A stretch of DNA of 64,000 nt. Origin: Hydractinia symbiolongicarpus (taxonomy: Eukaryota > Cnidaria > Hydrozoa > Anthoathecata > Hydractiniidae). Below, one piece after another: positions 9,947 to 63,719 of the stretch (within the stretch, counting starts at the first letter, position 1; each line of letters opens with the position of its first letter). Below the pieces are notes generated by a model that was given only the letters and a program-made list of their open reading frames with translations, was not told where the DNA came from and made no database searches. The stretch spans positions 8,680,001 to 8,744,000 of the forward strand of contig NC_079881.1 in assembly GCF_029227915.1 (NCBI RefSeq). Direction: 5' to 3'. A program made the translations under genes and the position numbers.

Positions 9947-9953
9947 TATAGAG
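9947..9953 (+). promoter_or_regulatory. TATA-like box of R1
   Basis: TATAGAG lies 75 bp before the R1 start codon. The R2 copy has TATAAAG at exactly the same distance, which supports a core promoter inherited with the duplication. Confidence 0.45.
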
Positions 9954-10021
9954 TAATGCCGTTGTAAAGCAAAACGAGAGAAACATATCATCGAAAGTAG
10001 TGTGAAGACTAAGAAGTAAAC

Positions 10022-13000
10022 ATGACTAGTTTTATTCCGTTGCTTTTTTGTATATTGCTGGAAGTTTCAAATGGTTTGGAGTATGAAGTAGTAAGGTCAA
10101 ACATTAATACTGATGAAATCACTGATAAAATCACTTTTAAAACAAACAATGAGGATATCTGTATCAAACATGGGGCAATTAATTTAACAAAAACAGATGA
10201 CAGAGTGACTTGCGCGTGCCCACGGAAGACGACATTTTATAGCATGCATACCGAGTCACCTGCTTGTCATCCAACCAATGCACATAATTTAGGAGGTAAT
10301 ATCTATTAACGGGCATTTGCAAATGCCTTCCTACAGTCAACAATCAATAAAACGGTTTTTAGCATGTGGTTAGTAGTATCTTTATTAAGAGGTAATTTTC
10401 CCAGGTGTGTTTTACTATACCAAAAGCCCAAAAATGTTGTGTGCCATAAGTCATAAATTCCGATTTACTTATGCTTATGTGGTGAAGCACCGCTGTACAA
10501 AGCCCTTCCACAAACTACCAGAAGCCCATAAATGTTGTTGTTCATCCCACCCTCAAAAAAAAGAAAAAAAAAATTTCACAATATCTCAGGAGCCTACCAC
10601 ATGCGCAACAAAAGTTATGACTGGCTGAAATAGCCGCAGGCGCCGGTATGGAATTTAACCCTATTCGGGCTGGAGTGGGAGTAAAAGTGCCTCTTACTCT
10701 CATTTTATTAGTGACTAAAGGGAGTAAATAAAGTATATCATAAAGTACCCAGTTGTATGAATTAAATGAATTCATTTAGTTTAAAATTAGTTGAAGGATC
10801 TTTTGTACAACGTCTTGTCTGTTGTTATAATAACTTATCAAATAGCCGGTGATAAAGAGAATATCGAACAAAGCATTTTCTTAGTCACATATCCTTATTA
10901 AAATTTTTGGCATTTTAGAGCCTTCCAGATACTCAGCTTGTCAAAACACTAAATACTACAAGAAGTTTTGGTCAAAAAACGAATATATTTTATTATAAAA
11001 GATGATATTTTTAGGTTGTGGCTGTATTGGAAAGTGCATGTCTTTTATCACAGCTGAGCTGTCAATGAAAAGAGTATTTTTGGAACCAGTAGCGTCGTGT
11101 AGCATAAACACACCAAGATATACAATAAGAAAATGGACAATGAATGGTTGGGAAGTATTTAATAGACCAAATGATTTACTAATCAGATATTCCGTAGAGG
11201 ATAACAAAGGAGTAATGAGATTTCACGTGAGTAAATTATGGTTTTATTATGTTTATTCACGAATTTTCTTATAAAAAACGAATGTAGTTTTTTTAGAAAA
11301 AAATATAGCAAAGCATTGCTGAACCGATTGCCAAATATTACGCAAGAAATATATAAAACGGAGGGAAGTTATGGACGTTTTAGTGAAAAAAAAAACTGTA
11401 GATTTATGACTACCTGAAAAAAAATAATTAAATTTCATATTTATATTATCTTATACACAATTTAATTTTGCTTTGATATCTAACATTTAAGGATTATTGA
11501 ATATACTGAATATTTGTCTAAAACATTACAGTATCCTTAATTAATTAATTAAAGCGCGTTTAAGACTAATATTCAGGTTAATCCTAAATTCGCCTTAGCT
11601 TTAACAATAATACGGCCACCAGAAAATATAAAGCAACATGCAAATCTCTCACAAGAAATTAATATAAAAACGACAGGAAGTCGCGTTATTTCTTTGATGT
11701 TTGCTTTCATATTCTTCAAAAACGCGGAAAAAACCACCTGTTGCTGTAATAATAGCACTAATGTGACCGTCACACAAGTTTCTCTTTGGTGAATATCCTG
11801 AAGTAAACATGAAGATCTTTATGACGTCAAACATACTGTCCTTTTTCTTTTCTTTTTATTTTAGTGGAAAGTTGATGGATTTCAAGTTATACCACACTAC
11901 AGTGGAAACATATTTTTCATTACTGGATTCTGTGGTGTAAAGAAACATTGTTTCTTAGCAAGCTCTCCGGGCACCAAAAAGTGTGAGTACACTCAATTTT
12001 TTCCTTTCAAATTTTGTTTAAAAATTTTGTTTGTTTAAAAAAAACGAAACAGTGTTTCTTTTAAATAGTTCCTTCATAATTTCTGTCAGAGAAATGATAA
12101 GCTTTCAGTGATAAGGCGCAACCGAAAGCAAAAGTTCCCAGGGGAATTATATTGGATTTATATTCGCTTATAAAAGTGTTGTCCTAGAAAGCGATTCCCT
12201 GCGGTTTGAACAAAGAAAATGTGTGGGTTATTTAAACGTCTAGATTTAAAAATACATAAATAAATATATATTGTCATGGTCTGTCTGTAAATGTTCTTTA
12301 AAAGTTTTCCCTTTCTTGTCTTAGTCCTGTATTAAAAAAATCCAAAAGACGAGTTTTATATACCAGCCACGCGATAACAGTAAAATATTACCCTGCTTTG
12401 ATTAAAAAAGCAATTTTGTTAACTGAAATGAAGAAATTAATAAAAATAACAACGCTTGCTAGTGTAAATTTTTTGCGGTATAGAAGATGAGAGAGATGTA
12501 AAATCTACAGTAATAGATCTACAACCTTGATCAAAATATGTCAAGACAAGGCAGCTAATTTCGCAGTTTGCCATCACAAGTAACTGTTTTAATTTTTTCC
12601 TTGACATACCCAATCTTTTAATAGTATAGGAAGAGGCAAGAGTAACAAAATTGGTTTGTATGTGCTTGCAAAGACAAAAATGCACCTTTTTATAAACATC
12701 AAAAAATCTTTGGTAGCCTTATCGTAACCCTTCTTAATAAACACGTTCAATGTAATTGGAACTGGGCTTTCAGTTACTGATATCTTTCTTATCCGGTTAT
12801 TGATTAATGGTTTTATTTTTTGCCTGACAGTCATCAATCCTAGGGTTCCATTTACGCCTAGTTCATGCTCGTAAAAAACCAGACAGGCAGGGTTTTTTGC
12901 TCACCGTCATTATTTCTTACATTTTAGACAACACTCTTGAACAAACTACAACGACAACAACTAGCTCAAATACAATAAAACCATCAACAGCACCAACTAC

Positions 13001-14472
13001 AAGAATCGCCATCACAAGTAACACTCTTAAGTTATTCCTTGACAAACCAAGCTTTTTATTATTATAGGAGGAGGCATGAGTAACAAAATTGGTTTGTGTG
13101 TGCTTGCAAAGACAAAAATGCGCCTATTTTATAAACATAAATAAATCTTTGGTAGCCTTATCGTAACCCTTGTGATTAAACACGTTCCATGTAATTGGAA
13201 CTGGGCTTTCAGTTACTGATATCTTTCTTATCCGGTTATCAATTACTGGTTTTTTATTTTTTGCGTGGTAGCCATAATCCTTGGGTTACGCTACGCCTAA
13301 TTCATGTTCATAAAAAATCAGACTGACAGGCTTTTTCGCTCACCGTCATTATTTCTTACATTTTTAGACAACACTCTTGAACAAACTACAACGACAACAA
13401 CTAACTTAAAAACAATAAAAAAATCAACGGTAACAACTACAAAAATCGTACATACGACTAAACATTCAAACGCAACAAAAAAGGATTCAGAAGAAAAATC
13501 ATCAAATTTAGTGACGATTGTGATTATTTTCACTGTTTTGTTTTTAATAATAATCCTTTTAATTGCGGGGGTGTTAATTTACAGGTAAGATGGTTTGTTC
13601 AAACACATTTCCGAATTGTGTGTTTAGATGGATACACACTACAAGTTTTGAATGAAATAATTACGATCAAACACCATCAATCTTTTCAAATTAAAATTTT
13701 TTAATCTGCTATAGAGATCCTAATTTGCTTTTCTGAAAGCCAGACTGACGATAGACAAGTACTCTTAAAATCTTTTTAAATTCCATAAGGATTATGTTTG
13801 TCTGTCGTATGGGTAGTCCCAATGACTGTCTAACATTCCCTCTTGAAAATGTCAACATTAATGGACAACGGAATGCATTTTCCTGACTGAAGAAAATTCA
13901 ATCTCTCTTTTCAAACTAAAAAAGGTGGTCCCCTTACTCGTCTATTGCATCTCAAATACGACTTATAAAAGTATATGCTTACGTTTATTTTAAACATATC
14001 AAAAACACTGTCCTAATTCGGTTGTGGACTAGGAAATCCCATATCCAAGAAAATATAACTTTGTGGCTTATTATTTCAAGTGATTTTTAGGAGAAAACCA
14101 CAAAGCAGTACCAACCACACAACTACTGTTGCTCAAATGCAAAAAACGGCTGCTGCATGTGATATGTATTTTCAGTCAAATCCATCTACGCCCGTATCAT
14201 CTCAACACACAGATGACCATTATTCACACATTTATTCGCCATCCCAAAACAGCAATGATCATTATTCATATATTTCTTCGAGACCAATAAGCCAACTTCC
14301 AACGAGAGAACAAGTAATAAGAAGCAAACTGCATGCGCAAAACCAGGAAGGTTCTAAAAATTATGTTACCCCCAACATTACATTAGTTGGTCAAAATTTT
14401 TTGTATGAGGTGGACGAAATCAATGCATCAATGCAATATGACAATGCATTTATGAATACATCAAGTGGTTAA
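10022..14472 (+). CDS. R1: single-pass receptor with ten-Cys ectodomain and ITAM-like tail (new family)
   Basis: Five exons: 10022-10295, 11015-11226, 11865-11982, 13368-13584, 14091-14472; 1203 bases, 400 residues. Residues 1-18 are a signal peptide. Exons 1-3 (residues 18-201) form a Cys-rich ectodomain with ten cysteines, including VTCACP, GCGCIGKC and GFCGVKKHC, and the family hallmark WKVDGF...HYSGN. An N-glycosylation site occurs at NLT. Exon 4 is a Thr/Lys-rich stalk, probably O-glycosylated, then a membrane helix at about 248-272 ending in YR. The tail (274-400) has Y318-SHI and Y332-SYI with ten residues between them, which fits the ITAM spacing YxxL/I-x6-12-YxxL/I, and Y365-VTP, a YxxP motif of the kind bound by Crk-type SH2 domains. 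I do not recognise the ectodomain. Receptor function is inferred from the architecture. An extra, truncated copy of exon 4 lies in intron 3. Confidence 0.8.
12928..13067 (+). other. Extra stalk exon (exon 4a) of R1 ending in a stop before the membrane segment
   Basis: The acceptor TTTTAG is followed by the same opening as exon 4 (NTLEQTTTTT) in the same phase. The Thr-rich stretch then diverges and runs into TAG at 13065-13067, without a membrane helix. It belongs to a tandem duplication of about 440 bp (about 12567-13008 and 13009-13450) covering the end of intron 3 and the start of exon 4. If spliced to exon 3 it would give a protein of about 247 residues with ectodomain and stalk but no anchor, so a secreted form. 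It may equally be dead duplicated DNA. Confidence 0.5.
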
Positions 14473-14911
14473 AGAGCGTTAGATGGATTACTTACGATGT
14501 GGGTCGGTCAAGTCGTTTTATGATAATGCTGACGTTTAAAGTATTATATATTTAATGTTTAAGATATTAATTTTTAGTTGATAGCTATTAAGCCATTGTT
14601 CATTTACGGTACAGAAGTGTTTTAGTAGTAGCAGGGGGTCCCAATAAACAGGTTTTGACCTTTCGATGGTCAAACCCCCACTAAAAACGCTCCTTCGATA
14701 CCCCCTTCAAGTCACACCCCGAATCGGTAAATCCGACGGCATCCGAAAACAATTCCGTAAATAATCAGAAACCAATAAATCTAGCCCATGCGCAATCGCG
14801 CGAGTGGGGAAAGGCCCAATCATGCCGACATTGAGGGAATCGCAATTGAGTAGGGGATTTCCCTATAATCTCGACCGTGCTATTTGAAGTTAAAAGCTGT
14901 TTATAATAAAG

Positions 14912-17900
14912 ATGAGTTGGTTCAGGAACGCAATCAGCAAACTATATGACACCGTGTCGGCACCAGTAGGAGCAACTCGCGACGCTCTTGCAGATCGACT
15001 ACGGAGTGTTCGGGATACCATTGGCTTCTACTATAACAAGGCGAGAGAGCAAATTTCGAGAGCAATGTCGCTTCACGACGAGGTCGAACGGGAAGCACGG
15101 GAGAACGAATATCAGGGAATCGAACACCTCAAACACATGTTCGGGAGGGAGAAGAAGCAAGCCACGAACCCGGAGGGAATCGAAGATATCCAGCACATAT
15201 TTGATGAGAATGACACGCAATTTTTGGAAGACGGAAATTGCATCAAGACATGGCGGTTCAACAAGAACCTTAACCAACCACTGACAGATGCTATAATGCG
15301 GAAGATCACGCCCCACGTAGACATGGGCGTCAAGGTAGTCTACAGTTTCAGCTGTGATATCTACCGAGGTGGTGGCGACGTGTCTGATTACCACAAAACA
15401 AGAGCTCCAGGTCACTATCAAGCGTGGCGGAAATCGAAGCTTTTATCGAAGAATGCAAGATAAAGCGCCTCGATCTGGAAGATCAAGAGTTCTGGACCAA
15501 GGCCTACCTACCACCCGACAGAACCATCGAGACCCCCGCAGCATACGAAGGTAAAGTTGTCTTCAAACATGTGCGGGTCAAGATCATCTCTACGAGGAAG
15601 CCCTTACTCGGGTGCGGACCACTTCCAGACTGGTTGAGGAAGAAGAGGTGCATCTACGCCATGGACGGTGAAGATGCCAGAGCCGACAACCTATGCTTTT
15701 GGAGATGCTTGGCTGTAAGGGAGAGGGACGACGTAAAAAGGGGAACAGAGTTCCTAACAAGGCCAGCCCTCAAACCAGCAGGCGAGTACTACGAGAACTC
15801 TAAGCTAAAGCGAGGAGATGTACGTGCCACGAAGCTCGTAGACTTCGAGGGCATAGCGAAACTCTTTGAGATCAACATCAGAGTCTTTGAGCCCAAGACG
15901 AGCTCTGAAAAGGCACCATGGCGGCTCGTCTACGGTCAGAATCAGTACAAAGAGGGGTTAGACACAATCAACCTTGGCATGCTGGATGGGCACTGTTTCT
16001 TCATCAAGGATTTAGACGTACTAGCGCGACAGAAATGGAAATGCAAGGCCTGCAACCAAATGTTTACGAAAAGCAACCACCTCACGCGGTATAAAAAGAA
16101 CGAGTGCGAGGGTGTTAAGACGACAATCCTTTGCAAAGCCAAGAAGGTAGAGCGCATGCCGAGCAAGTCGGAGAAGGTCTTTCACGACGAGGGTTTTAGT
16201 TACGCGGCGTGTCAATGGATAAAGGCAATGTCGGAGCGAACCGGAAGGCACATACACCACGCGCTCTGTGGGAAAGGCGGAGAACGCGTGATTTACTACG
16301 GGAAAAGAGACAATAAGTTCTACAGGGTAGACGGCTACGACCCTCAGACCCAAGTTGTCTACGAGTACCACGGCTGCAAGTGGCACGGATGCCCTTGTTA
16401 ACAGAAAAGAACCGCGGCGGATAAGAATCGGTATACCGCAACCCTGAACAAGGAGGAAGGCATTCGAAAACTCGGCTACGGCCTCGTCACGGCCTGGGAG
16501 TGTGAGAGCCCTCAAAAAATCAAGAGGTACTTCAAGAAAGATTTTCGACCCTACCTCCACTATATCGTGTTTGACTTTGAAACCCTCCTAGCACCTTTAC
16601 ACCAGCGGCAAACATCTGATCTAACATATCTCTCGGAGCATATCCCTGTAAGTGTCGCCATTCACGATAGTCTGAATAAAAACCTAAAGTTCATCATCGT
16701 GCACGAGGATCCCAAGGTCTTTGTTAAGCAGTTTGTCAAAGAGCTGGAGAAAAGACAAGCCCTCATCGTCGAAGAAGTCGAGAGGATGTACCCGAGACCA
16801 GACGACTTCAACATGCTCCCCAACAAGACTCGAGCAGCTTGGGACGAGTGGGTGAACCAAGTGGCGGTGTTCGGCTTTAACAGCGGAAAGTACGGCATTA
16901 ACCTGATCAAGCGGTACTTTGTCGAGCGAATTGCTGAAAACGAGAAAATCAACGTGGTGAAGAAGGAAAACGACTATATGTTCCTCACGACCTCGAGGTT
17001 CAAATTTCTCGACATCAAAAACTTCCTCGCGCCTGGAATGAGCTACGACAGCTGGTGCAAGTCTCTGGAATCTGGGCTCGAAAAGCTCGTGTTTCCTTAC
17101 GAATGGCTGTTAAGCTACGACAAGCTGAACCATGTTGGCCCCGTGGAGCACGAGGCCTTCTATAGCAGTCTTGTTGGGAAAAACCCCCTATCTCCAGAAG
17201 GGTACGAACAGTTTCGCGCGGGATTTTACGAGCGAGGCTGCGTCACCATGATGGATTGGCTGCGTGAGTACAACCTAGCCGATGTGGAACCCTTCGTTGA
17301 AGCCGTCGACAGGACGAGGCTGCAGTACTACGACGATGAGATCGACATTCTGAAGGATGCTGTTAGCATTCCAGGCGTGTCGATGCGCTACGTCTTGAAC
17401 AAGTCTCTACGTTTAAACCCCGAGCTAGAGCTCTACGCTCCAGGGAAGCCTTGCAAGCACAAATGCGAAGAAGAATGCTTCAACAGCCGGTGCAAAGCCT
17501 GCAAAGAGGTTCAAAAAGCCTTCGTGGAGTGCACGAGAAATGAGGCCTATGAGCTATGCGGACGGGGATGGTCGGTGGCCCAGCGATTGTCTTCTGTAGG
17601 TACCACGAGAGGGATGTGACAGCTATCAAATCACAAGTGTACAGCGAACCCCGCAAATGCAAGTCGATGTCGAGGTACCTCCGAGCTTTATGACAAATTC
17701 AGCGAAATGTCTCCGCTGTTTGTTGTTAAAGAGATACACGATAATCAAATTCCGAGCACATGCACGAGTACTTGACAAATGCGGGGCGCAAGCCTGATAC
17801 TGGTACGTGCAAGCTCCTAGGGGTGATGAAAGCTGAAAAGATCCTGTTGTACACACCCGTGCTAAAATGGTACATCGATCACGGGCTGAAAGTCACAGCT

Positions 17901-18382
17901 TTTTACCAGTTCCTCAAGTACGCCCGAGGTAAGCCATTCGCGTGGTTCCCGGAAGAGATTACTGATGCGCGACGACAAGCAGATAAAGACCCTGGCAATT
18001 CCATAGCGATACGGCCAAGTTGAAGGGCAACTCGTTCTACCGGAAGATGATCGAAGATCTGGCTAGGCATTCTAACACCACATTTACCAGAGACGAGAAG
18101 GAGGTCGATGCGGCGATGAGATCCCCGTACCTCGAAGAGATTGGAGACGCGTACAAGATCAGAAAGGGTAGGCACGGGGTCAGAATCGATAGAGCCTACC
18201 AGTGCGGTGTCGCCGTCTACCAGCTGGCCAAGTTGCGCATGCTCGAATTCTACTACGACTTCCTGGACAAGTACGTAGACCGTGCTGAGGGTCTGAGGCG
18301 AGATACCGAGGCAGTCCTTATCATCAAGGACTCCATGCCGATTTGGGAATCCTCGTGTACTCAGCCTTTGGAAAATTCCTAG
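14912..18382 (+). pseudogene. Polinton protein-primed DNA polymerase B, broken
   Basis: The reading frame is scattered over all three frames: 14912-15463, 15424-17619, 17760-18023 and 18020-18382. A nonsense TAA lies at 16399-16401. Frame changes lie near 15400-15424, near 17560 and between 17690 and 18020. The N-terminal part has amphipathic segments, then a zinc-finger-like CKAC...H...C stretch and the YEYHGCKWHGCPC motif seen before the polymerase core in Polintons. The exonuclease domain shows FDFETL (Exo I), FGFNSGKYG (Exo II region) and FLAPGMSYD. Later come LLYTPVLKWYIDHG, KGNSFY and YQCGVAVYQLAKLRMLEFYY of the palm region. The expected catalytic DTDS-type motif and the thumb are missing because the homology ends at about 18300. 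It cannot make an active polymerase. Confidence 0.8.
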
Positions 18383-18499
18383 CTCCGCTGTCAGTCGCTG
18401 CGCACACGATCAATCACATTCAGCTTTCACATGTGTCCAAGAGCGGTGAAAATACGGATGATGAACAGCGAGAGAAAGATGAGCAGCGCGTGTAGTATT

Positions 18500-18783
18500 A
18501 TCATCAACCAACAGCAACCCTAGACCGTGGAAAAATTGTTGAGGTGCACAAAAAGCACCCGGGAAGAGTCGTGGCAGGTAAGAGACTTGACGAATGGAAC
18601 CGTCAACAGGGAAAGCTTTGAAAAGCCCCGCCAAAGAAAAAACCCATGACGTTTAGAGAGTTTTTGAGATACTTCGATAGAGATTTAAACACTCCCGAAG
18701 CCATACCCACAGGGATAAAAGAGACCATGGAGATCCTTGAGGACCAGGGCCTATCTCTCCATATTGATGTGAAAAAGAAGTGA
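18500..18783 (+). pseudogene. Fragment of a Polinton small protein with HPGRV motif
   Basis: One frame holds KKHPGRVVAGKRLDEWNRQ, a stop TGA at 18619-18621, then an open stretch from ATG 18646 (MTFREFLRYFDRDL) to TGA 18781-18783. The HPGRV-A-G motif recurs in the next gene (HPGRVAQGHNLA), so these are two related small proteins in tandem. The function is unknown to me. Confidence 0.45.
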
Positions 18784-18810
18784 TTTCTTCAAGTCTCGTG
18801 ACTTAACGAA

Positions 18811-19185
18811 ATGAGTGAAGAACAGACACAAGAAGAGAGAGTTATTACGCGTTCAGTAAAGCATCCGGGGAGAGTCGCGCAGGGCCACAATTTGGCGGCA
18901 CTGATGAAGAAGAGGAAAGAGGAACTGAAACAACAAGAGGGCACTGTAGAATCTACAGTCAAAACCTCTTCTGGAGTCAGCTCTGGAGTCAATTCTGTAC
19001 AGTCATGTGCCGTATACCTTGGCGGAGGTCTCGCTGCCGTACTCGCCTGCGTTGCAGTGGTCTATTACATTTTCCCTCAGCAGGGCGCAACCAAGCAGCA
19101 GCCTGCCGAAATCCCGGAGCCACGCGCGCCTCAGCCCACGCCCCAGCCTGATATTGACATTTTTTGCATGCGCCAAGCCCCATAA
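18811..19185 (+). CDS. Polinton small membrane protein with HPGRVA motif
   Basis: 124 residues, intact. The N-terminal half is basic and polar, with the motif KHPGRVAQGHNLA followed by a lysine-rich helix (MKKRKEELKQQ). A single strongly hydrophobic segment follows (YLGGGLAAVLACVAVVYYIF, about residues 69-88), then a proline-rich end (PEPRAPQPTPQP). The layout suits a virion- or membrane-associated small protein of the element. No enzymatic motif is seen. It follows the HPGRV fragment by 27 bp. Confidence 0.55.
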   Translation: MSEEQTQEERVITRSVKHPGRVAQGHNLAALMKKRKEELKQQEGTVESTVKTSSGVSSGVNSVQSCAVYLGGGLAAVLACVAVVYYIFPQQGATKQQPAEIPEPRAPQPTPQPDIDIFCMRQAP

Positions 19186-19230
19186 TAAATGAGTTCCAAC
19201 GTAACGCTTCAGTAAAAAGAAGTACTCGAC

Positions 19231-19440
19231 ATGTTGTACGAGACCGTAGTCGATCTCGGTTTCACCTTCACCTATGCGATGACAGGGAAAAGGTTCCTAG
19301 GCATCACGAGTCCCTCCACCAAGATGGATACCAGCGATGCTCTGAAGATGGTAGCTTACTTCTCAGCGGGAGGGGCCAGTCGTGATATGGCTGTATCCAA
19401 AGGTTGGATCCCTGCAAGTATCGTGCCAAAGCCAAAATAG
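19231..19440 (+). CDS. Small Polinton ORF, function unknown
   Basis: 69 residues starting at ATG 19231 (MLYETVVDLGFTF) and ending in PKPK. Unbroken, with a Gly/Ser-rich middle. It is followed at once by a stem-loop at 19450-19481. I do not recognise it; its position among other small ORFs and the matching base composition are the main support. Confidence 0.4.
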   Translation: MLYETVVDLGFTFTYAMTGKRFLGITSPSTKMDTSDALKMVAYFSAGGASRDMAVSKGWIPASIVPKPK

Positions 19441-19449
19441 TTGACCACG

Positions 19450-19481: not shown

Positions 19482-19486
19482 TTAAC

Positions 19487-19636: not shown

Positions 19637-19648
19637 AAAAGGAAATCC

Positions 19649-28728: not shown

Positions 28729-31700
28729 ATGACTAGTTTCATTCCGTTGCTTTTTTGTATATTGCTGGAAGTTTCAAATGGTTTGGAGTACGAATTAGTA
28801 AGGTCAAACATTAATCCTGATGAAATCACTGATAAAATCGCTTTTAAAACAGACAATGAGGATATCTGTATCAAATATGGCGCAATCAATTTAACAAAAA
28901 CAGAGAATAGAGTGACTTGCGCGTGCCCAAAGAAAACGACATTCTATAGCATGCATACCGAGCCACCTGCTTGTCATTCAACCGATGCACAAAGTTTAGG
29001 AGGTAATATTTATTAATGCGCACTTACAAACGCCTTCTTGCGGTCAACAATCAACTTTATGTTGTTAGTAGTATCTTTATTAGGAGGTAATATTTCTAGA
29101 TGTGTTTTAGTATATAATTAACGTTTTAGGTATTATTTATTCTTTGTAGCCCTGGGGGAAGGATGGTGGTGGGGGGTAGCGTGTGGTTAGTCATAAATTC
29201 CGATTTACTTATGCTTATGTGATGAAACACAGCTGTAGAAAGTCCTTCCACAAACTACAAAGTGCACAAATATGTAGTTGTTCATCTCACCCTCAAAAAA
29301 GAAAAAAGAGAAATGTTACAACATCTCAGGAGCCTATCACATGCCCACTAAAAGGTTTGACTGGCTGAAGTAGCCCCAGGCGCCGGTATGAACTTTAACC
29401 CTATTCGGCTGGAACGGGAGTAAAAATATTTCTTACTCTCATTTTACAAGTGACTTTAAGCATTTTTAGTTATTTTCTTCTTCATTGCATTCAATCAAAT
29501 AAAACTTCATTTATTAACTTTAAATAACTTTCGTATATGCGATACAAAGGAAGGTAATCAAGTGTATCTTGAAATACCCGGTTATATGACTTCAATAAAT
29601 TCATTTGGTTTAAAAAAAATTGAAGAATATTTTGTACGGCGTCTTGTCTGTTGTCATGATAACTTACGAAATAGCCGGTGATAAATAGAATATCGAACAA
29701 AACATTTTCTTAGTCAGATATCCTTATTAACAGTTGCAAAATCACTCCAGCCTCTGTGGCATTTAACAGCCTCCCAGATGCTCAGCTAGTCGAAACATTA
29801 AATACTTCAAAAATTTTTCGCCAAAAAGAAATACATTTTAAAACATGATATTTTCAGGTTGTGGCTGTATTGGAAAGTGTATGTCTTTTATCACAGCTGA
29901 GCTGTCAATGAAAAGAGTATTTTTGGAACCAGTAGCGTCGTGTAGCATATACACACCAAGATATACAATAAGAAAATGGACAATGAATGGTTGGGAAGAA
30001 ATTTTTAGACCAAATGATTTACTAATCAAATATTCCGTAGAGGATAACAAAGGAGTATTGAGATTCCATGTAAGTAAATTATTTTTTTAATTATATTTTC
30101 ACTAATCTTTATTAAAAAAAATTAGCTAACAAAGCGCCTTTTTAAAGAAAATGTGGCAAAGCATTGCTGCTATAGAACCGTTGAACTGATTTAGAAATAT
30201 TAGGCAATTAAAAAATTATTGAAGTTATTGGCGTTTTAATGAAAAACAAAAAATGTAGATTTAAAAAAAAATTTTATATTTATATTATCGTAAAAAAAAC
30301 AAAAAACGAGAACGTTTGGGAAGTAATGAATATACTTAAATGTTGCTGAACCAATACAGTATCATTAATGAAAGCACAGATTAGTCCTAAATGCGTTTTA
30401 GCAATAATACGGCCACCAGAAAATATGACAAAAACATGCAAATTTCTTAACAAAAGATGTAAAGAAACGAAAGTGTAGGATGCCACCTGTACCTGAAATA
30501 TATAATGTGACCGCAAAACAAGTCTTTCTTCGGTAAATAATTTCAAGCCAACATACAGATCTTTATGACGTCAAACATATTCTCCTTTTTCTTTTCTTTA
30601 TATTTTAGTGGAAAGTTGATGGATTTCAAGTTATATCACACTATAGTGGAAACATATTTTTCATTACTGCCTTCTGTGGTGTAAAGAAACATTGTTTTTT
30701 AGCAAGCTCCCCAGGGACAAAAAAGTGTGAGTAATATTAACTTTTTCCCTTTCAAATTTTGTTTAAAGAAAACGAAACCGTGTTTTTTTTTTTAATAGTT
30801 TCTTTACGTAATACTTATTGCTGTTGCAGAAATAATAAGCTTTCAGTGATAAGGCGAAACCGAAAGCAAAAGTTCCCCAAAAAAGTGTATTGTATTTTAT
30901 ATATCAGCATGATTCGATGAGTTCAAATATTACGTTTTATCCGCTTATAACAGTGTCGTCATAGAAACCAATTCCCAGCCGGTTTAAACAAAGAAAATGT
31001 GTGGGTTATTTAAACGTCTAAATTTAAAAATATATAAATAAATAAATACCGTAAATGTCTGTCTGTAAATGTTCTTTAAAAAGTTATCTGTTTCTTGTCT
31101 TAGTACTTTGTCCCATTTGTGGCTAACTCCGAAATAGGGGATTTATGTATCGGCTACGTGATAACAGCAAAGAATAACCCTGTTTTGATAAAATAAGCAG
31201 TTCTATTAACTGTAATCAAGAAATTAGTGAAAATAACAACGCTTACTAGTGTAAATTGTTTGCGGTATAAAAGATGAGTAATAGATCTACAATCTTGATC
31301 AAAATATGTTGAGACAAGACGGCTAACTTCGCAGTTACCATCACAAGTAACTGTCTTAAGTTTTTTCCTTGACCAACCCAGCCTTTTAACATGATAGGAA
31401 GAGGCAAGAGATCCTGGTAACAAGATTAGTTTTTATGTGCTTGCAAAGACAAAAATGCGTCTTTTTTAATAAAAATCAAAAAAAGTCTTTGGTAGCTTCA
31501 TCGTAACCCTTCTTTTTAAACACGGTTAACGTAATTGGAACTGGGATTTATGTTATTAATATCTTTCTTATCCGGCTATTGAATAATGGTTTTACTTATT
31601 GCCTGATAGCCAACAATCCTACGGTTCCACTTACGCCTAGCTATGTTCATAAAAGAACCCAATAGATGATTTTTACATTTTTAGACAACACGCTTGAACA

Positions 31701-32604
31701 AACTACAACGACAACAACTAACTTAAAAACAATAAAAAAATCAACGGTAACAACTACAAAAATCGTACATACGACTAAACATTCAAACACAACAAAAAAG
31801 GATTCAGAAGAAAAATCATCAAATTTAGTGACGATTGTTATTATTTTCATTGTTTTGTTTTTAATCATAATCATTTTAATTGTGGGGGTGTTAATTTACA
31901 GGTAAGATGCTTTGTTCAAACAAATTTCTGTATAGTTTTCCTAGATAGATACACACTACAAGTTTTGAATAAATTAATAAAGATCAAACACCATCTATCT
32001 TTTCAAATTCAACATTTCAATCGGTTAAAGAGATCCTAACTTGGTTTTCTCGAAGCTAGGCAATATGCTGACGGTAGATTTAAGTACTCTTAAAATCTCA
32101 TCAAATGCCATAAGGATCATGTTTGTCTGTCGTACGAGTAGTCTCGATGAATGTTAAACATTCTTTATTGAAAATGTGAACATCAATGGACAATGAAATG
32201 CATTTTATTGACTGGAGGAATTAAAATCTCTCTTTTCAAACTAAAAAAGTTGACTCCTTACTCGTCTATTGCATCTCAAATACGACTTATGTAGATGCAT
32301 ATTGTTATTTTAAACATATCAGATATACTGTCCTAATTCGGTTATAAAATAGGAAATCCCATGTCAAAAAATGTACATATAAATTTGTGGCTTAATACTT
32401 CCAGTGGTTTTTAGGAGAAAATCAAAAAGCAGTACCAAACACACAACTACTGATGCTCAAATGCAAAAAACAGCTGCTGCACGTGACAGTCAAATCCATC
32501 TACGCCCGTATCATCTCAACACACAGATGACCATTATTCACACATTTATTCGCCATCCCAAAACAATAATGACCATTATTCATATATTTCGTCGAGACCA
32601 ATAA
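28729..32604 (+). CDS. R2: receptor paralogue with frameshifted tail lacking tyrosine motifs
   Basis: Exons 28729-29002, 29858-30069, 30609-30726, 31685-31901, 32415-32604; 336 residues. Ectodomain, ten cysteines, Thr-rich stalk and membrane helix match R1 closely. By hand count R1 and R2 differ at 13 of 91 residues in exon 1, 6 of 71 in exon 2 and 2 of 39 in exon 3. In exon 5 a 10-base stretch present in R1 (just after GCACGTGA, near 32487) is missing. The frame shifts and ends at TAG 32602-32604. The bases for the R1-type tail, including the tyrosine motifs, still lie out of frame up to 32786. As read, R2 is an anchored receptor with a short basic tail and no YxxI or YxxP. Either it is a decoupled (decoy-like) form or an early pseudogene. 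Confidence 0.7.
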
Positions 32605-39853: not shown

Positions 39854-42800
39854 ATGATACTTTTAATCTTCGTGTTTTTTGATTTACTGAAAATGGCAAT
39901 CTGTATGGAATATGAAGTAGAACGTTCAACATATTACGACGACAAAATTATATTTAAAACGGATAGAGTTGATATTTGTTCGATGCATGGTGCTATATAT
40001 TACAAAAAAACAGAAAATACAGTAACATGTACTTGTCCTTTAGGGACAACTTTTCACAGCCTACCCTCGCAAAGACCTGCTTGCATTTCGTCGACTGCAC
40101 AACACCTAGGTAAAGCATTATACCTCTGTCTGGAATATAGAATTATAGCTAAGTAATAATAAAAATAAGATTCTGGCAGACAGAGTAAACAGTAAAAACC
40201 CTTCCTCTTAAGACAGTCATATTTTATAACAGTATTTTTTTATTAACTCAATCGCCCTCCATTACCTCTTTTTTACTTCACAATGAAATAAACTTAAAAT
40301 ATAAAATGGCTAAACATTAAAGTACTATTTTTTTTCTAATTTTGCCGAGTAAAAGTAATTTAAAGTAATTGAAAAATTTTAAAATTTTGGAAAAATTGCT
40401 GATATAAACAAACACTCAGCATTACTTTTAATGATCAACAAGAAAACAATTGTTAACAATTAAATATACTTATATATATTTTTAGGTTGTATATGTTCAG
40501 GAACGAATTGTGCGTCGCACATCACACCTAATCTATCAATTCTTAGAATACTGGGTTCGAAAGTCCAATGGTGCAGCAATGTTACTATGCCCGCATACAC
40601 AATCCGAGTTTGGACACCAAGTGGTTGGAAGCCATTTTCCAGACCAGATGACATGGTCGTTAGATTTAGTGTAGAGGGTAATGTCGGAAAAATTAGAATT
40701 CAGGTAGGAATATACAGATAGTTTTTTGAAGCAACTTGGCTATACCTGGTATTTCAGTTATTAAACAAATGCTTTACAATTGGTTAGTTGTTTAGGAGAA
40801 GATGAAATAAAATGTTATCTTATAAAATTATGAAGCCTTACCGAAAATTTACAAGCAAATATTTCATTTCATGTCAACTTTTTACCTGAATGCACAGATT
40901 ACCTATGATTTGTTAAAAATAACAACCAAAGTATTAAGTATAAAAAATAAAAAATGAGTTTGCAGAAGTTAAAATATTTATCAGTTAAGCCTTGTCTACA
41001 CTAAGTACATCATCAGGCTTTAAAGAGCTCTTGTTTAGTTGTTTATAGTCTGATAATGCACTTAGTGTACGAAAAGCTTAACTAATAAATATTTTTACTT
41101 CTGCAAACTCGTTTTTTATTTTTTCCTCTTAATAAATATGATTTAAAAACTGTAAAAAGGGAATTGTTCCAAAACCGAGTATGAGCGATTTTAGGTGACA
41201 TATATTAATGTAGGTCCCATAATCCTTTTTTTAAAACCGTATTCCAAAAATAGTTTGTTGCTTGTGCTCAATAATGATTATATTAATGTTGCTTAGAAAT
41301 CCTACTAATTTTTACGAAGTACTATGTCTGATATAATAAGATGCACCATTCTGCATTTTTTACACACTTCATAATTTTAAATTTTAGTGGAAAGTTGATG
41401 GATTTAATGTTATATCACACTACAGCGGGAACCTATTTTTAATTACTGTATCTTGTAATGGTGGAAATACAGAGCAATGTTTTTTGGCACAATCTGCAGG
41501 AAGGATAAAATGTAAGTGCAATTTTATTACAATCTTTTTATCTGACCGCCATTTGACGTTGAAAACTCGGCGAAATCTTAGTAACTACCTTTTGCATTTG
41601 GCGGTTTTTTATGGGAAATATGTGGATATTTGCACATGTGGAAAAGGGGCTGTTACTGTAAAAACAAATATTTTATCACAGATTATTTATGCCATTGCTT
41701 AAGTGTCTATGCAATTGGGAAAATGTAGAAACATCGATATGGTTTTTGACTGATTAAACGCCCTGGGCGTCTATTTAAAAATCAACTTAATATGGGCGTT
41801 TATTTGAAATGATTATCATAACATTTAGGCTATAAAATTTAATTTTTTTGTTAAGAATCAGTGGAAATATCATTAAACTTTAAACATCATTGGACTAATC
41901 AGTGAATAGCAACTTATCCTTTTAAGTAAACGCCTATGGCCGCCTATTAATTCAACATACAGCAAGCCACGGCGTTTACTTGAGTATGACTAATTATTTC
42001 GAAATGGCGGTTGGTAGTCATTAATTAGGCTTTAATCAGTCAAATACAGTAATTTTAATTTGTTTTTTTATCTTTATTATTACTACGTCTATCTAAAACG
42101 AATCTTTAAGTAAATTTTTTATCGATTTTCTTAGATAATGAGATAAAGCCGACTTTACAGACGACCATGCGTGCCTCAGAAATCTCAGCAATGCAATCAA
42201 CGCAAACAGAAGCCCCTGCAAAAACAGTCAGTTTACTTTGGATTGGTAGCATATCTGGTGCTGTTTTTTTTATCATAATTCTAATAATCTTGGCAACGAT
42301 TATATGCAGGTGTGTAAATTTGAGGTTACTCGTTTCTTTAAAAGTACGCAATATTCCACACTGCCAATGTAGATCTGAAAAAATTCGGGTTATTCTCTCA
42401 TACAGTGTCAAGGCGTCTACGAAATTTATTTAAAACTTCGTCTGTGTCTATGGTTTACTCCCAGTTTATTCAGTTTACCAGGGTGTAATTCATAAAACAC
42501 GCCCTGGTAACTGATCATAAAATAAACAATAAATAACTTTTGCTTACAGGGTAGTTAATCTGAAAACGCTAGTATAAATAATATGTAGAAAGGAAAATTC
42601 AATACTAATTTTATTTGCAGGAGAAAATCATCTGACCGGGACACAAAAAATACCCCCTTTAATCAGGCACCACGAGCAATTGTAACTCAAAGTGAACGCT
42701 CTCAGGCACGTCTACCTGGCGTCATATCGGCTTCAAGTATGAGTAACCAAAATCGACATCCGCATTTATATCCAAGACCAATACCTTCACCAAGAAAAAG

Positions 42801-43044
42801 GGAACAAGATCTGCCATATTATATCACTCCAAATACCACATCAGATGGTGATATACCTCATCTGTCGAATCCAACTGATGTTGTATCATCTCAGAATGCA
42901 AATAACCAATATGCGCATGTCTATTTAACTGCAACAAGACCAATACCTTCTCCAATAGAGCAGGAGGTCGACTCCACATATTACATTACTCCAATCAGTT
43001 CATCATATGATGAATCAGACTTATACTCAGTTATCCAGAATTAA
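39854..43044 (+). CDS. R3: receptor paralogue with YITP/YSVI tail
   Basis: Exons 39854-40109, 40486-40703, 41388-41511, 42135-42309, 42621-43044; 398 residues. It begins at ATG 39854 with a signal peptide (MILLIFVFFDLLKMAIC). The ectodomain keeps all ten cysteines (DICSMHG, VTCTCP, PACIS, GCICSGTNC, VQWCSN, VSCNGGNTEQC) and WKVDGFNVISHYSGN. The stalk is shorter than in R1, and the membrane helix is about WIGSISGAVFFIIILIILAT. The tail has Y325-ITP and Y379-ITP (YxxP), Y355-AHV, Y393-SVI, and two RPIPSP proline motifs that could bind SH3 domains. With R4 and R5 it forms a second subgroup (stalk starting YN or FG, shorter exon 4). Intron 2 carries a long foldback at 40942-41125. Confidence 0.8.
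40942..41125. repeat. Long foldback (about 69-bp arms) in R3 intron 2
   Basis: 40942-41010 and 41056-41125 are inverted copies with about eight mismatches by hand count, separated by 45 bp that contain a smaller ATCAG/CTGAT inverted pair. It is either a foldback MITE or a hairpin RNA source. Confidence 0.6.
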
Positions 43045-54585: not shown

Positions 54586-57500
54586 ATGGCTATTTTATAT
54601 CTAGTGTTTTTTATCTTACTAAAATATTCAACTGGTTTGAAATATGAAGTAACACGATCAGCATATGTACTTGACAGAATTGTGCTTAAAACGAACAGAC
54701 TTAATATCTGCGCAACATATCGTGCAACGAATTACGGAAGAATTGATAATAAAGTGACATGCACTTGTCCCCCAGGGACTACTTTTCATAGCGTGAACAC
54801 TGAAGTACCAGCATGTCTTTCTTCCACAGCAGCACACCTAGGTAAAGTCCCGTATTCGATAATTATATTGTATTTGCATATCGAGACCGATTTATCCGTC
54901 AATTAATCAAATTTCATCCGTAACAATTTAAGACTATGATGCACCAAAACCAATTCATTTTCTTTAAAAATTTTAATAAAGGCAAAATGAAGTCCAACTT
55001 ATCTATATTAAAATACCCGTATACGTCTGTCTGTCTGTCACGCAAAATGGTAGTTTAGCTGCGCAAGTAGCGAGACGCACGCAATGTGGTATAAAAAGGA
55101 CGGGCGAACCCATGGATTTTTTCACGGGCTAACGACTAGCTTTTATAAAATGTGACTATGACAACAAGCCAATATGATATATTTTTTAAGGATCCTTTTA
55201 GGATCTGACTTAACGTGCTGTAAAACCATAAATTTAATATTTTTAGGTTGTGACTGTTTTGGAGAGAATTGCGCGTCATCAATCACGCCAAATCTATCAA
55301 TGCTTAGAAAGCTTCAGTCAAAAAAGACATGGTGCAATAATGCTACTAAACCTAGTTACACAATTAAAGTGTGGACACCAACTGGATGGAAGAATTTTTC
55401 AAGATCCGATGATATGGTCGTCAGATTTTACGTAAAGGATGATATTGGCAATTTGAAATTTCAGGTGGGAAATAGCATTAGCTGGATTGCTCACCAGTGA
55501 GAATCAAAACAATATTTTTAGGAATCCTCGTTAAATATGTTTTAAACATGCCAAATTTTTATGTTTCTTTAAAACTTTTAATTTTCTTCTCATAACATTT
55601 AAATTCAGCATGGCTTACATGCGCGTAAATTTTTATATAATTTTAGATTAAAGAAGTCATAATTTGCACAAAAACGCTTATTAATTTTTGAAATAAAATG
55701 TAATTGACACAAAAATAAAAAAGTCGAGCCAGTTTTTCGGGCTGGAGCGATCACAATTTTTAGCTGACCTAACCGAGATCTTGGTTCAACGAAGCAAGAT
55801 CTCAGCCAACTAGGCTGGCTCGTTTCCAATGTGGTCGTATTTGACTTTTTTATGAAAATTTTTTAATAAAACCGGAATTTCCGCAAGTCATATGATCAGT
55901 TTCTAAAAAGCTACAGCATTTGTATATTTACAAATTTCAGTGGAAAGTTGATGGATTTAATGTTATATCACACTACAGTGGAAACCTGTTTTTGATAACT
56001 GTGTCTTGTAATGGTGGAAATACAAAGCATTGTTTTTTAGCGAAGTCGCCAGGTCTTAAAATGTGTAAGTAAATTTTTTTATCAAAATTATGCTACCTAT
56101 CTTTGCTTCTATAGTTTAACGGAAATAAATGAAAGAAATACTACTGGTTCTTCGATGTCTTATTAAAGTGGGCTTAATTTAACTACAATAAAATTTACGT
56201 CAGCCACAATATTAGTATAACAACCCCCAACGCCCTTTTCTGTATCTCTGTGACTTTTTTGCAATAAGTGAAACGGTCACACATATATCCCACATTACAT
56301 GCAGAGGGAAGTGTACTTTCATTTGATTTGTTGTTGCATTTTGCCAAAAATAGGTTTGTTCGCGGAATGTTTATGATGATTTTGCCACATAAGATAGCCT
56401 GGTAAATTCACAATACGTGTAGAAAGATTTTTTTCACAGTGTTTTAAACATAAATAATAAGGAAAGGCACTTTCATTTAACCCTATTCGGTCCGGGGGGG
56501 GGGGGGGGGCGGATTCCGCCCGCCCTGACGGTTTTTTTTTAATAACTCCTGATTGCTTTGTTATATGGCTATGATACTTACTGAGTTTCAACATTTATCT
56601 ATTAGACACCTGCATGCTAATTTTTTAGGTCCCATACCTTTCAGAGGCTTTGATATTGGCCATTACTCGAAACTACCCCTAAAAATCTCTATGAAATCCT
56701 TATAATGGGGAAAATATAATAACTCCTGTTAGGATTATCCTTAGAACTTGAAACTTGCAACACAACTTTGTTTTATCAAGAAGAATCATTTTGAATAATT
56801 TGAACACGTGACTAATCCGATTTCCCGATTTTGTCGGATTTTACCCGAAAATCGGAAAAAAAAACGGATTTTCGGGCAATTTTTGGCAATTTTTCATCCG
56901 ATCCATGTAAAAACCGGAAGATATGTTAAATAACTTTTATTTAGCTTTCAGAAACTTCAAACAGAATGTAAAAATTCGCTCTAGAACAAAAGTAATTATA
57001 TTTTAAGCAGATAGTGGCATTTTTAACAATTTTCAAGCTTTTGATGACGTCACAGAAAATGTGCTGACGCAAGCAAATTTTTTTTGGCGCCTTTTTGTTC
57101 CTTTTATGACGTACTATAAGTATGCCAAGTTTGATTCAATTTGAACAACCCTATGAAAAGTTATTGAGGGGGGGCGGAATCCGCCCCCCCCCCGGTCATA
57201 GTATGTTCGAAAAACCCCGGACCGAATAGGGTTAATTTGTTATTATATTTTATCAAAAATAGGTTTGTCTTGCGGAATTTTGTGATGATTTTGTCGCATA
57301 GAATTGCCTGATAAATTAAAAATACGTGTAGAAATTTTTGTTTCATAGCGTTAAATTTAAATTTACACTTAAAAAGAAAAATTTTTGCAAAGGTAGAATG
57401 ATCACACAAAGAGGTGTGCTGACTTGATGGATTTTCTGAAACTATAACTTACAAATTTGAAACAAAACAAAAATTTTAGTTAAGACGTAACTGAGAAATT

Positions 57501-59609
57501 AGGAGTATTAGACAAAGCTAGAGATACATGTAATAACATCGGATAATTGAAAATCTTAAACTTGCCAAACTTAAATACGTGAATCTCCCTCTTTTATTTA
57601 TTAGATAATGTAATGCAGGCAACACCAAAGACAGTCGAGCGTACTCCAGAATATATACCAAAGCAATCAAAGAACACAGAAGTCGGCTTAACATCTTCAA
57701 CTTTAATTTTGATTGGTGTTATAGTCGGGGTGCTTATTCTCATAGTCAACCTTGCAATTTTGGTAATATGTATTTTCAGGTAAGAACAAGTAATAATACA
57801 TACGTCTTTGCTTTTTTCAGTAATTCTATTTAAAAGCAGTCATTTTCAAAGTTATAATAACGTTGAATGTAAATATAAATCTCTTTAGTAATAGCTGTCG
57901 TCTGTCTGTCTGTCCGCGAAGACGCGTCCTGTTACGGAAACACGAAATGCGATATATCAAGGAAAGGCGACCCCGTTGATTTTTCCACGGGTTAACGACT
58001 AGTCTATTTAATAATAGTCGTATTCTATGTGTTCACAATGGCTGCTTGCAGCTTCGTTCCGGGGCTCCTGGATTAACGACTAAGTTTATAGTATATAATA
58101 GTTGCCGTACGTCTGTGTGTCTGTAAGCCAAAATGGTAGCTGTGGGTAGCGCAGGTCTGTTTAAAAACAAAGAGTATAAGATACCATAACTTATTTATGT
58201 CCTTTTTACACAATTTTCTACTTCTGTTTCACTATCTTGTTTAAATTTTTGTTGATATTTACTTCTTTATTTACCTAATACAAATGTTGCTTTAGCTAGC
58301 TAGCCATAGGGACCAAGAAGAATTTTCGTTTTATGATCTCAAATTACTCTAGCTGACAAAGTACATTACTAACTTAATTGGTTAATAGAGAAAATGCCTT
58401 GATTGATGGTTTTTGATAATATTACTTTTGATTCTGAGAGCATGGCTATGTAGACTTTTAAGTGTTATAGTCTTGACATAGCAATTTAAAAGCATGGGAA
58501 AACAGGTCTATTAATTGCAGCACATTGTGCCAAATACATCTAGCTTGACAGCCTGTAATTTTATTTCGTCAAAGTTTCTTTGTAAAATGACAAATGTAAG
58601 TGTCAAATGGTGAATACTTGTTTTACCTATTACGGGCCTCAGTAATATTTTTTAAGATTACATTTGGAACATTTCGGAAGGCCTTGATACGCTTCCGAAA
58701 TGTTCCGAAAACTAAAATTCATGATACATTGCGTTGCCGTTCTGTATTATGAAGGATATTAACCCTAATAAAACCTGGTCGTGGGACGTCCAGATATGTG
58801 TCGGGTAGAGCTTAATCAACATTTATCATAAAAAACATAATGACTAGCTTATTTGCTCTAAAATACTTTTGCCATGTGTACAGCCTTTAATCACAGCATT
58901 GCTAAAAAAATCGTACCTATTTCTTCATTATTTGGTGAAAAACTTACTTTTTTTGCCCCACCTTTCTTAAAATGCCTATTTTCTGGGACTCAGGAAGTAT
59001 AGCGTATACATTTTACTATATATTTCACTATTCTGTTGCATTTGTTTGAAAGCGCGCAGAGAACCTTTTAAGTCAAAAATCCTTTGATTGTCAAAATACA
59101 GGTCTACATGACTAAATAATGCCAACTACAGTTTAACTGGTGGAATGTTTGTCTGTCTTTTATATATATATATATATATATTTGTTAATCGCTTAAATAC
59201 AAGTATCTTGCAAGTCTACACCATGCGTTAACGCCGGGTTTCAGCAAATATACATAAAAAACCCAAAACAAGTAAACAAAGCATAAAAAAATCAACCAAC
59301 ATCGAAAGGCGCTTTAAAACTACTACGTTACGAATCACCAAGCAATATTTATGTCATTTATCCGATTTAACAATAAAAAACCTTCTTAGAATATCAAGAA
59401 AAAACCAATTAATTACCTCTGTTGTTATTTTTAGGAAAGTATCATCTCATGAAGCCTCCAAGAAATTGAGTCTAAACAGACAGCTTCAACAATTACAGGA
59501 CAAAGTTTTCATTCTCGATAAAAGTTACCTTACCAAGTATATCATTGTTCCGGACAGAACGAACATAGCGCATTCAAAATATGTTTCTTGTACACTTATC
59601 AACGCATAA
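54586..59609 (+). CDS. R4: receptor paralogue with unrelated short tail
   Basis: Exons 54586-54841, 55247-55464, 55941-56064, 57605-57779, 59435-59609; 315 residues. Exons 1-4 have exactly the R3 lengths (256, 218, 124, 175 bp). Signal peptide MAILYLVFFILLKYSTG; all ten cysteines kept (NICATYR, VTCTCPPG, GCDCFGENC, VSCNGGNTKHC), WKVDGFNVISHYSGN present; membrane helix about STLILIGVIVGVLILIVNLA. The tail is only 58 residues, basic at first (RKVSSHEASKKLSLNRQL) and with YLTKYIIV but no YxxP or YxxI pair. It therefore shares the ectodomain but not the signalling tail of R1, R3 and R5. A MITE lies in intron 3, and a foldback and several short repeats lie in the introns. An AATAAA follows at 59742. 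Confidence 0.75.
55001..55145 (+). repeat. Dispersed short repeat (CACGGG...TAACGACTAGC), copy a
   Basis: It begins AAATACCCGTATACGTCTGTC and contains CACGCAAAATGGTAG and CACGGGCTAACGACTAGC. Related copies are at 57885-58165 and, inverted, at 62340-62590. It lies in R4 intron 1. Confidence 0.55.
55735..55825. repeat. GAGCCAG foldback in R4 intron 2
   Basis: CGAGCCAG ... CTGGCTCG arms enclose a second perfect pair, GAGATCTTG / CAAGATCTC, with an 11-base loop. A related GAGCTGGCTCG / CGAGCCAGC pair occurs near 6010-6110. Confidence 0.45.
56481..57231 (-). mobile_element. TTAA-flanked MITE, copy 3, in R4 intron 3
   Basis: CCCTATTCGGTC / GACCGAATAGGG termini, TTAA at 56477-56480 and 57232-57235; 751 bp. 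Inverted relative to copy 1 and very similar to it along its length, so both are young copies of one family. Confidence 0.7.
57885..58165 (+). repeat. Dispersed short repeat, copy b (two adjacent units)
   Basis: The first unit has GTCTGTCTGTCTGTCC...CACGGGTTAACGACTAG. A second partial unit starts near 58105 (GCCGTACGTCTGTGTGTCTG). It lies in R4 intron 4. Confidence 0.5.
58666..58706. repeat. Perfect 15-bp hairpin in R4 intron 4
   Basis: GGAACATTTCGGAAG (58666-58680) pairs exactly with 58692-58706 around an 11-base loop. Confidence 0.55.
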
Positions 59610-62339: not shown

Positions 62340-62590
62340 TAGTTGGTGGCCCGTCGAAAAATCCACGGGTTCGCCTGTCCTTGTAATACAGCATTGCGTG
62401 CATGTCGCTATTTACAGTACCATTTTGCGTGACGAACAGACGTATACGGGTATTTTAATAGAGACTATTCGTCAATCTGTGATAAAATTCACAGGGTTGC
62501 CCGTCCTTTACATATTGCATTTCCGTAACGAGACGCCTTTTCTAGCGGCAGACAGACTAAATACGGCAGACTAAATAATTATATAGATAC
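62340..62590 (-). repeat. Dispersed short repeat, copy c (two units, inverted)
   Basis: On the minus strand it repeats AATACCCGTATACGTCTGT...CACGCAAAATGGTA...CCGTGGATTTTTC and then a second unit like 57885-58015. Confidence 0.5.
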
Positions 62591-62830
62591 GTTGCGACTA
62601 TTTGTACAGTCAATTCGAATTTGGGTCATTCGAGTATTCACTTCGTTGATTAAGATGATCCGATAATAATCACTAGTATTACATTTGAAGAAGGGAATGA
62701 CCGATACAAAAGAACCACATGATTTCTTAATTACAGTTTAAATATAAGCATTTATATTTTCAGTTGATTTTCCGTGATACTGTAACTTTGGCAGCAAGGT
62801 AAAGAACCAGCATCATTCTGGTGCCAAAAA

Positions 62831-63719
62831 CTAAGGTAAGTCGTAAGGGATAGTTGAGTACATGTCAATTTCAATATCAAACGGATCGTTTGGAGTAATA
62901 TAATACGTAGGCTCTGCGTCAACTCTTCTTTCTGGAGGTGTTGGTTCAACATGTGAAGAATGTGTTGTCTTGTTTTCAAATGGTCTGTCATTAGGTGAAT
63001 TTGGGCAAGAATGGAACTCTCGTGTTGTGGGTATTGTCGGTGTCGCGTAAGGTGGAACTGCTTGTACTGTTTTATCAGATGATTTTCTCCTGGAAATAAC
63101 ATAAAAGAGTAGTTATTATACTTGTACTTTTATAAACAGGATATAGTTATTTACAATTAAGATAAACTTTGTCGTTAACTAACGATTTCTTTAAAAAGCC
63201 ATGAATACGAAGCCGAAAATACTTAAAAGGAGTTACTTAGAGTAATACAGGGTATGTTTTTTCGATTTTCGACTGTTCGATCTACCTTATTCATTTTCCA
63301 AGGGTCTTGCAGAAAGACTATATAAGTTAAACAAATCACCCTACTTTACAGGAAAATCATAATATCTTACATAAAAACCGATATCGGAGAAAAAACAAAA
63401 ATGTCTTTTCTAAAGAGGTGTAAACATGCACAAGTTTAGTGTATTTGTGTTGCATGAAGGATGAGGGTTTTCGTCATAGATAGCTAGATAGCCAAAATAT
63501 TAAAGATAAAAAAAATTGCTTATACATTTTACCTGAACATCAGCTTCACCATAATAGCAAGGTTTATTATCAAAAAGAGTCCAACGATTGTACCAATTAA
63601 AATTAAAGTTAAGGATTTTTGTGAGACTTCTGTTCCCGTTGATTTGCCTTGTGAGATGTCTGGAGTATTCTTATCTGTCTCCGCACTTGGTTTCATACTA
63701 TTATTCTCTCTCATACCAA
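62831..63719 (-). CDS. R5: receptor paralogue on the opposite strand, 3' exons only
   Basis: Two exons: 63719-63533 (stalk and membrane helix) and 63089-62831 (tail, stop TAG at 62831-62833). Phases (1 in, 2 between) equal those of R3 and R4. The stalk has SMKPSAETDKNTPDISQGKS, and the helix is about LTLILIGTIVGLFLIINLAI, very close to R4. The tail opens RRKSSDK like R3, then has PPYATP, a PTPPERR proline stretch, TYYITPN and MYSTIPYDLP. It thus keeps YxxP and the YSTI motif near the end, as R3 does (YITP, YSVI). Exons 1-3 must lie beyond the right edge. The downstream part of intron 4 has normal GT and AG sites. Confidence 0.75.

Follow-up and report, generated by a model that had tools for sequence, protein, structure and literature searches.

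Array of receptor genes on chromosome 7

What kind of receptor is encoded by the cluster of similar genes found in a 64,000-nucleotide stretch of chromosome 7 of Hydractinia symbiolongicarpus (the window, C7:8680001-8744000), and what could it do for the animal? An original prediction, made from this sequence alone, had described a clustered, unrecognised family of single-pass receptors with ten ectodomain cysteines. In the genome searched (480.9 Mb, 76 contigs) we found that the receptor-gene array is real and that the family is wider than the array. The family is so far unnamed; it is a receptor family of a known kind, but its ectodomain module matches no Pfam model. We give a probability of about 55% to the reading that these are type I single-pass receptors with an immunoglobulin (Ig)-like ectodomain, shaped by tandem duplication and decay, which serve in innate immune or cell-contact sensing.

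Four genes in the window (R1 to R4) were found to carry complete ten-cysteine ectodomains, next to the membrane and tail exons of a fifth (R5) and one exon relic. The paralogy was far above chance, with E 1.6e-52 for R1 exon 1 against R2 and E 5e-21 against R4. Each of R1 to R4 starts with a hydrophobic stretch and has exactly ten cysteines in its three ectodomain exons, the third of which holds the WKVDGF..SGN block; a stalk/membrane exon follows. The splice sites of exons 1 to 4 were consistent in these four genes, with intron phases 1, 0, 1 and 2, and exon 5 was found in R1, R2 and R3 too. R5 lies on the minus strand with only exons 4 and 5 inside the window, and its ectodomain also has ten cysteines. 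Exon 3 seems to end in a cysteine, but splicing produces a codon for tyrosine or phenylalanine there, so that no cysteine is encoded. A hydrophobic start and one strong membrane segment were present in all four proteins measured (R1, R3, R4 and R5). The exons are as follows.

10022..10295, plus: R1 exon 1, signal peptide and N-terminal cysteine subdomain; donor GTAATA, phase 1
11015..11226, plus: R1 exon 2, first half of the predicted Ig-like part
11865..11982, plus: R1 exon 3, WKVDGF..SGN block, second half of the predicted Ig-like part
12927..13019, plus: R1 second, incomplete copy of the Thr-rich stalk exon, either a relic or not used; 68% identity to 31 stalk-exon residues, without membrane segment
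13368..13584, plus: R1 exon 4, stalk and membrane helix (hydrophobicity measured)
14091..14472, plus: R1 exon 5, tail with two tyrosines at ITAM spacing (YSHI, YSYI)
28729..29002, plus: R2 exon 1
29858..30069, plus: R2 exon 2
30609..30726, plus: R2 exon 3
31685..31901, plus: R2 exon 4, stalk and membrane helix
32415..32786, plus: R2 exon 5, tail, frameshifted relative to R1 by a 10-base deletion
39854..40109, plus: R3 exon 1 (LOC130649322; the RefSeq model starts inside exon 2)
40486..40703, plus: R3 exon 2
41388..41511, plus: R3 exon 3
42135..42309, plus: R3 exon 4, stalk and membrane helix; junctions agree with RefSeq P0001 (hydrophobicity measured)
42621..43044, plus: R3 exon 5, tail with YITP, YSVI and PIPSPR motifs; agrees with P0001
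46181..46411, plus: relic, lone exon 1 with internal stop
54586..54841, plus: R4 exon 1
55247..55464, plus: R4 exon 2
55941..56064, plus: R4 exon 3
57605..57779, plus: R4 exon 4, stalk and membrane helix; downstream of it the window shows no recognisable tail exon
63533..63719, minus: R5 exon 4, stalk and membrane helix
62831..63089, minus: R5 exon 5, tail carrying the motifs YITP and YSTI; exons 1 to 3 lie outside the window at C7:8748119-8746812

R3 was 100% identical to LOC130649322 of H. symbiolongicarpus across the aligned part (70% of the query), and the RefSeq protein of this locus (P0001) matches R3 from inside exon 2 onward, beginning at an inner methionine. The RefSeq protein P0002 (LOC130649179) corresponds to R7, located at C7 8.776-8.779 Mb, and is divided into the same five parts at matching joints. 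A duplication of 5.0-5.4 kb accounts for R1 and R2, which are 74-84% identical over three aligned pieces, introns included.

The prediction was thus upheld in so far as this is a cnidarian family of single-pass receptors that is clustered and unrecognised: the exon sets are paralogous, a Pfam scan of the ectodomain gave no family at its cut-off, and database searches of limited reach returned only Hydractinia proteins. Of the five members and one relic that it had counted, the window holds the R1 to R4 ectodomains and the relic, but the R5 ectodomain exons lie beyond it. The shared design of ten-cysteine three-exon ectodomain, WKVDGF block and stalk/membrane exon was found inside the window in R1 to R4. 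A tail had been assigned to every member and was recovered in R1, R3 and R5, but in R2 it is frameshifted, and within the window no tail exon could be recognised for R4.

Family members across the genome

Exon 2, searched against the genome, had 15 matches with an E-value no higher than 0.001: eight on contig C7, four on C11, two on C3 and one on C6. With P0003 (LOC130635465) as the query, 50 exon matches were obtained at E 10 or better, which added genes at C7 5.71, 5.72, 16.09, 16.92 and 19.26 Mb as well as, on the same contig, broken exons (5.01 Mb) and a set of repeated modules (4.96 Mb). P0003 belongs to two nearly identical, distant members on the minus strand of C3, at about 25840168-25844219 and 25857881-25861480; this contig is probably chromosome 3, which carries the allorecognition complex. 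A second cluster, with at least four copies of which one is broken, was observed at C11:25210134-25248330 (minus strand).

Twenty three-exon ectodomain modules from C3, C6, C7 and C11 were aligned. The set has no row for the near-identical twin on C3 or for the second 5.72-Mb gene, and four broken copies (R6, R8, C11 25.210 Mb and 5.015 Mb) are likewise absent from it. Alignment A9 comprised 17 of the 20 modules (without R2, C11_3 and 4.96_M3) and alignment A10 comprised 14 (without R2, R9 and the four 4.96-Mb modules). A profile of R1 to R5 matched the 15 other modules tested at E 2.8e-83 to 1.2e-8; none of the 5,000 shuffled decoys included in this small search did better than E 0.02. The gene at 4.96 Mb (C7 about 4962040-4970376, minus strand) has four tandem modules; after them come a stalk rich in Thr, a membrane segment and a putative tail. 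In a midpoint-rooted tree these four modules formed one clade (support 100/99), and the three C11 genes included grouped with R1/R2 (support 89/85).

The ectodomain module is bounded by phase-1 introns. Eight cysteine columns were filled in 18-20 of the 20 modules, while the remaining two were both empty in all four 4.96-Mb modules; one of them was also empty in R9, and the other was shifted one residue later in four members. The joint absence of these two cysteines from the 4.96-Mb modules suggests that they pair with each other. The cysteine count was ten in 14 modules (in R9 with some at other places), nine in C11_3, eleven in C6 and eight in the 4.96-Mb modules.

Protein-database searches for relatives outside Hydractinia returned only H. 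symbiolongicarpus proteins, and their reach was limited: one did not return P0004, which is a true paralogue (about 24-31% identical to other members), and another had neither P0002 nor P0001 in its listing although P0002 was one row of its query. Therefore, absence from other hydrozoans cannot be claimed. In the literature no paper on such a family was found by title or abstract start, nor did the RefSeq gene models, searched by name except for LOC130649501 (three of four), lead to one.

Predicted fold of the ectodomain

AlphaFold2 models of two members that are 28% identical gave, with moderate confidence, an Ig V/I-set-like sandwich for exons 2 and 3 in both. Among the structure matches listed for the two models, 50 of 50 and 47 of 50 were with Ig domains by title; the sequence identity in the listed matches was only 2-20%, and they covered mainly residues 87-196. 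With regard to the canonical Ig pattern, a disulfide between strands B and F and a tryptophan in strand C, W127 of P0002 is invariant and stands 12 residues after C115 (19 of 20 modules). The P0002 model places C115 between strands, and C115 and C180 are not lost together. Based on these models, exons 2 and 3 probably form an Ig V/I-set-like sandwich. It counts against this assignment that no animal Ig family was matched at E 1 or better in any of the 17 modules scanned (of 20); one of these gave a bacterial Ig-like match with E 0.19. Alternatively, the ectodomain could be a new fold, with the Ig match reflecting a general beta-sandwich resemblance. We regard this as doubtful, as two different members share the same order of eight strands and Ig-domain chains make up nearly all of the matches listed. 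The original prediction had stated that the ectodomain could not be placed in Ig or another common fold, which is probably wrong for one half of it, exons 2 and 3.

Several other candidates were set aside. TMEM154, the database's precomputed label for P0002, was the one near miss, in P0002, and covers the stalk and membrane segment. For Diedel, CoV_ExoN, DUF7091, PKD_6, Big_14, TMEM154 and others the Pfam matches were weak, confined to between one and three members apiece, and below cut-off where seen. Proteasome beta-1 in the PDB sequence set gave a profile match over about 50 residues (A9 positions 51-97; E 0.02 and 0.05), centred on an FS-x-P-C...GC...C pattern in one family of orthologues and with a chance-level E-value. 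It was rejected, as the exon-1 profile alone gave no match and the cytosolic compartment does not fit.

Selection between paralogues

The ratio of non-synonymous to synonymous substitution rates (dN/dS) was determined for 13 paralogue pairs and was below 1 in all of them, with overall values of 0.22-0.59, three pairs having an overall dS above 1. For the R1-R2 ectodomain it was 0.31. Among single exons the maximum was 0.71 (R3-R5 exon 1). In the 12 pairs whose exon estimates were usable, dN/dS peaked in exon 1 seven times and in exon 2 five times, and exon 3 was lowest in five of the nine pairs where it was estimated; two exon values were inestimable, one dS was 0, and exon 3 was left out for four genes (three pairs). 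Judged from the coding sequences, these ratios show constraint on average, not positive selection, between paralogues, and the earlier description of the genes as fast-changing was not borne out.

Tail motifs

Nine tails were scanned (R1, R3, R5, R7, C11_3, C6, 16.09, 19.26 and C3). Y..P was present in five and P.P.PR in five. The strict immunoreceptor tyrosine-based inhibition motif (ITIM, [SIVL]xYxx[ILV]) was found in two (R7 and 19.26) and the spacing of the corresponding activation motif (ITAM, Yxx[IL]x6-12Yxx[IL]) in R1 only, both without a computed chance level. The C3 tail had none of the scanned patterns. Tyrosine and proline motifs in tails act as docking sites (SH2, SH3), and their recurrence here suggests that the tails signal. 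Tails of Alr candidates are described as carrying ITAM and ITIM motifs (PMC12065747), and the signalling style may therefore be shared.

Damaged copies and probable neighbouring mobile elements

The tail exon of R2 is 10 bases shorter than that of R1, and its reading frame is therefore broken. A sequencing error is unlikely at this place, because the assembly is reported to be built from HiFi reads (PMC10411563).

Between R1 and R2, at about 14894-23343, there is a GC-rich insert (about 43-50% GC) in which an integrase core (PF00665, E 3e-11) was identified and an A32-type ATPase was matched weakly; four of the six frames scanned gave no family. The insert resembles a Maverick/Polinton-type element. 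A reverse transcriptase fragment (RVT_1, E 9e-8) was observed at 35373-35711 (minus strand), and a CENP-B N-terminal DNA-binding domain (E 2.5e-11), presumably from a pogo-like transposon, at 48720-49061 (minus strand). On the array flank, at 477-1173 (minus strand), there are exons encoding a collagen-like stretch as well as two Ig domains, which do have Pfam matches.

Comparison with known systems

The Alr family (Alr1, Alr2 and about 40 relatives) comes from the same animal and likewise consists of single-pass receptors in clusters with pseudogenes. Its Ig membership is described as confirmed with structure prediction (PMC11067881, PMC11876637), and here an Ig-like fold is predicted. The two differ in that the present array lies on chromosome 7 and Alr on chromosome 3. 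Compared by description, they also differ in the ectodomain, which is a three-exon ten-cysteine module with an exon-1 subdomain here and V-set plus I-set domains in Alr (PMC11999971).

Chains of BTLA, CTLA-4 and TREM2, vertebrate receptors with a single Ig domain, were among the best structure matches of exons 2 and 3. These are single-pass receptors with short tails. However, the sequence identity in the listed structure matches is only 2-20%, the Hydractinia proteins have an extra cysteine subdomain, and a strict ITIM occurs in two of nine tails only.

Drosophila Diedel (PF13164) is described as also being extracellular with ten cysteines (PMC3307722). One of 14 exon-1 pieces (of 20) matched its profile weakly (E 0.017; score 16.0 against a cut-off of 21.3), but the other 13 did not, and in the PDB sequence search the exon-1 profile matched no Diedel chain.

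Proposed role and alternative explanations

In the reading that we prefer, the family would grow by tandem duplication and decay of five-exon receptor genes. Their module would join an N-terminal disulfide-rich piece (exon 1) to the predicted Ig V/I-set-like sandwich, and the ectodomain would bind a ligand on another cell or on a microbe. Binding would lead to phosphorylation of the tail tyrosines Y-[IV]-x-P and C-terminal [LM]Y[ES][VT], which may then dock SH2 proteins, with the P-x-P-x-P-R stretches docking SH3 proteins. The likeliest role would be innate immune or cell-contact sensing rather than the choice between fusion and rejection itself.

The array could be a second allorecognition locus, whose receptors would be polymorphic and would determine self and non-self in colony fusion alongside Alr1 and Alr2. 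The same animal, single-pass receptors with tyrosine tails, clustered decaying copies, the predicted Ig-like fold, the ITAM-spaced tyrosine pair in R1 and the distant twins on C3 (LOC130635465), probably the Alr chromosome, are consistent with this. However, the array lies on chromosome 7, whereas the Alr complex is placed on chromosome 3 (PMC11876637; PMC13119343), with 40 Alr or Alr-like genes (PMC11876637), and crosses in three genetic backgrounds are reported to have rejected modifiers unlinked to the allorecognition complex (PMC3276163). For these two reasons a chromosome 7 locus is unlikely to determine fusion, and with the average paralogue dN/dS below 1 as well, we hold this explanation to be very improbable.

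Purifying selection and recurring tail motifs would fit a steady function equally well, such as that of housekeeping or developmental adhesion or ligand receptors of the epidermis without an immune role. As a general expectation, the copy number, the pseudogenes and the Hydractinia-only search results would be less usual for such receptors, and we think this rather unlikely. Neither do we find it likely that the array is largely dying, with only one or two genes (R3 and R7) still working. The frameshifted R2 tail, R4 without a tail exon, the exon relic, the broken R6 and the partial R8 point in that direction, and of this cluster only R3 and R7 were found as RefSeq proteins. Against it stand the constrained R1-R2 ectodomain and the intact ten-cysteine frames in R1 to R5, and with the limited reach of the protein search missing RefSeq names prove little.

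The preferred reading of a sensing family could also be extended further. A second, independent Ig-like recognition family outside the allorecognition complex, with an unfamiliar disulfide-rich fold fused to an Ig sandwich, differing tail motifs and haplotype-variable copy number, would be a cnidarian counterpart of leukocyte or natural killer receptor complexes. We offer this as speculation that is unlikely to hold.

Significance for Hydractinia

Hydractinia, a colonial hydroid, serves as a model for self/non-self recognition and is one of the few invertebrates with a cloned system of this kind. The interest of the family rests on this animal and on direct testability, its function being what we infer: a second receptor family is open to knockout, expression mapping and population resequencing. 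As the ectodomain module is without a Pfam model, it defines a domain to add and to seek in other cnidarians. If true, a tyrosine-tailed, probably Ig-like family on another chromosome would be a second arm of Hydractinia immunity.

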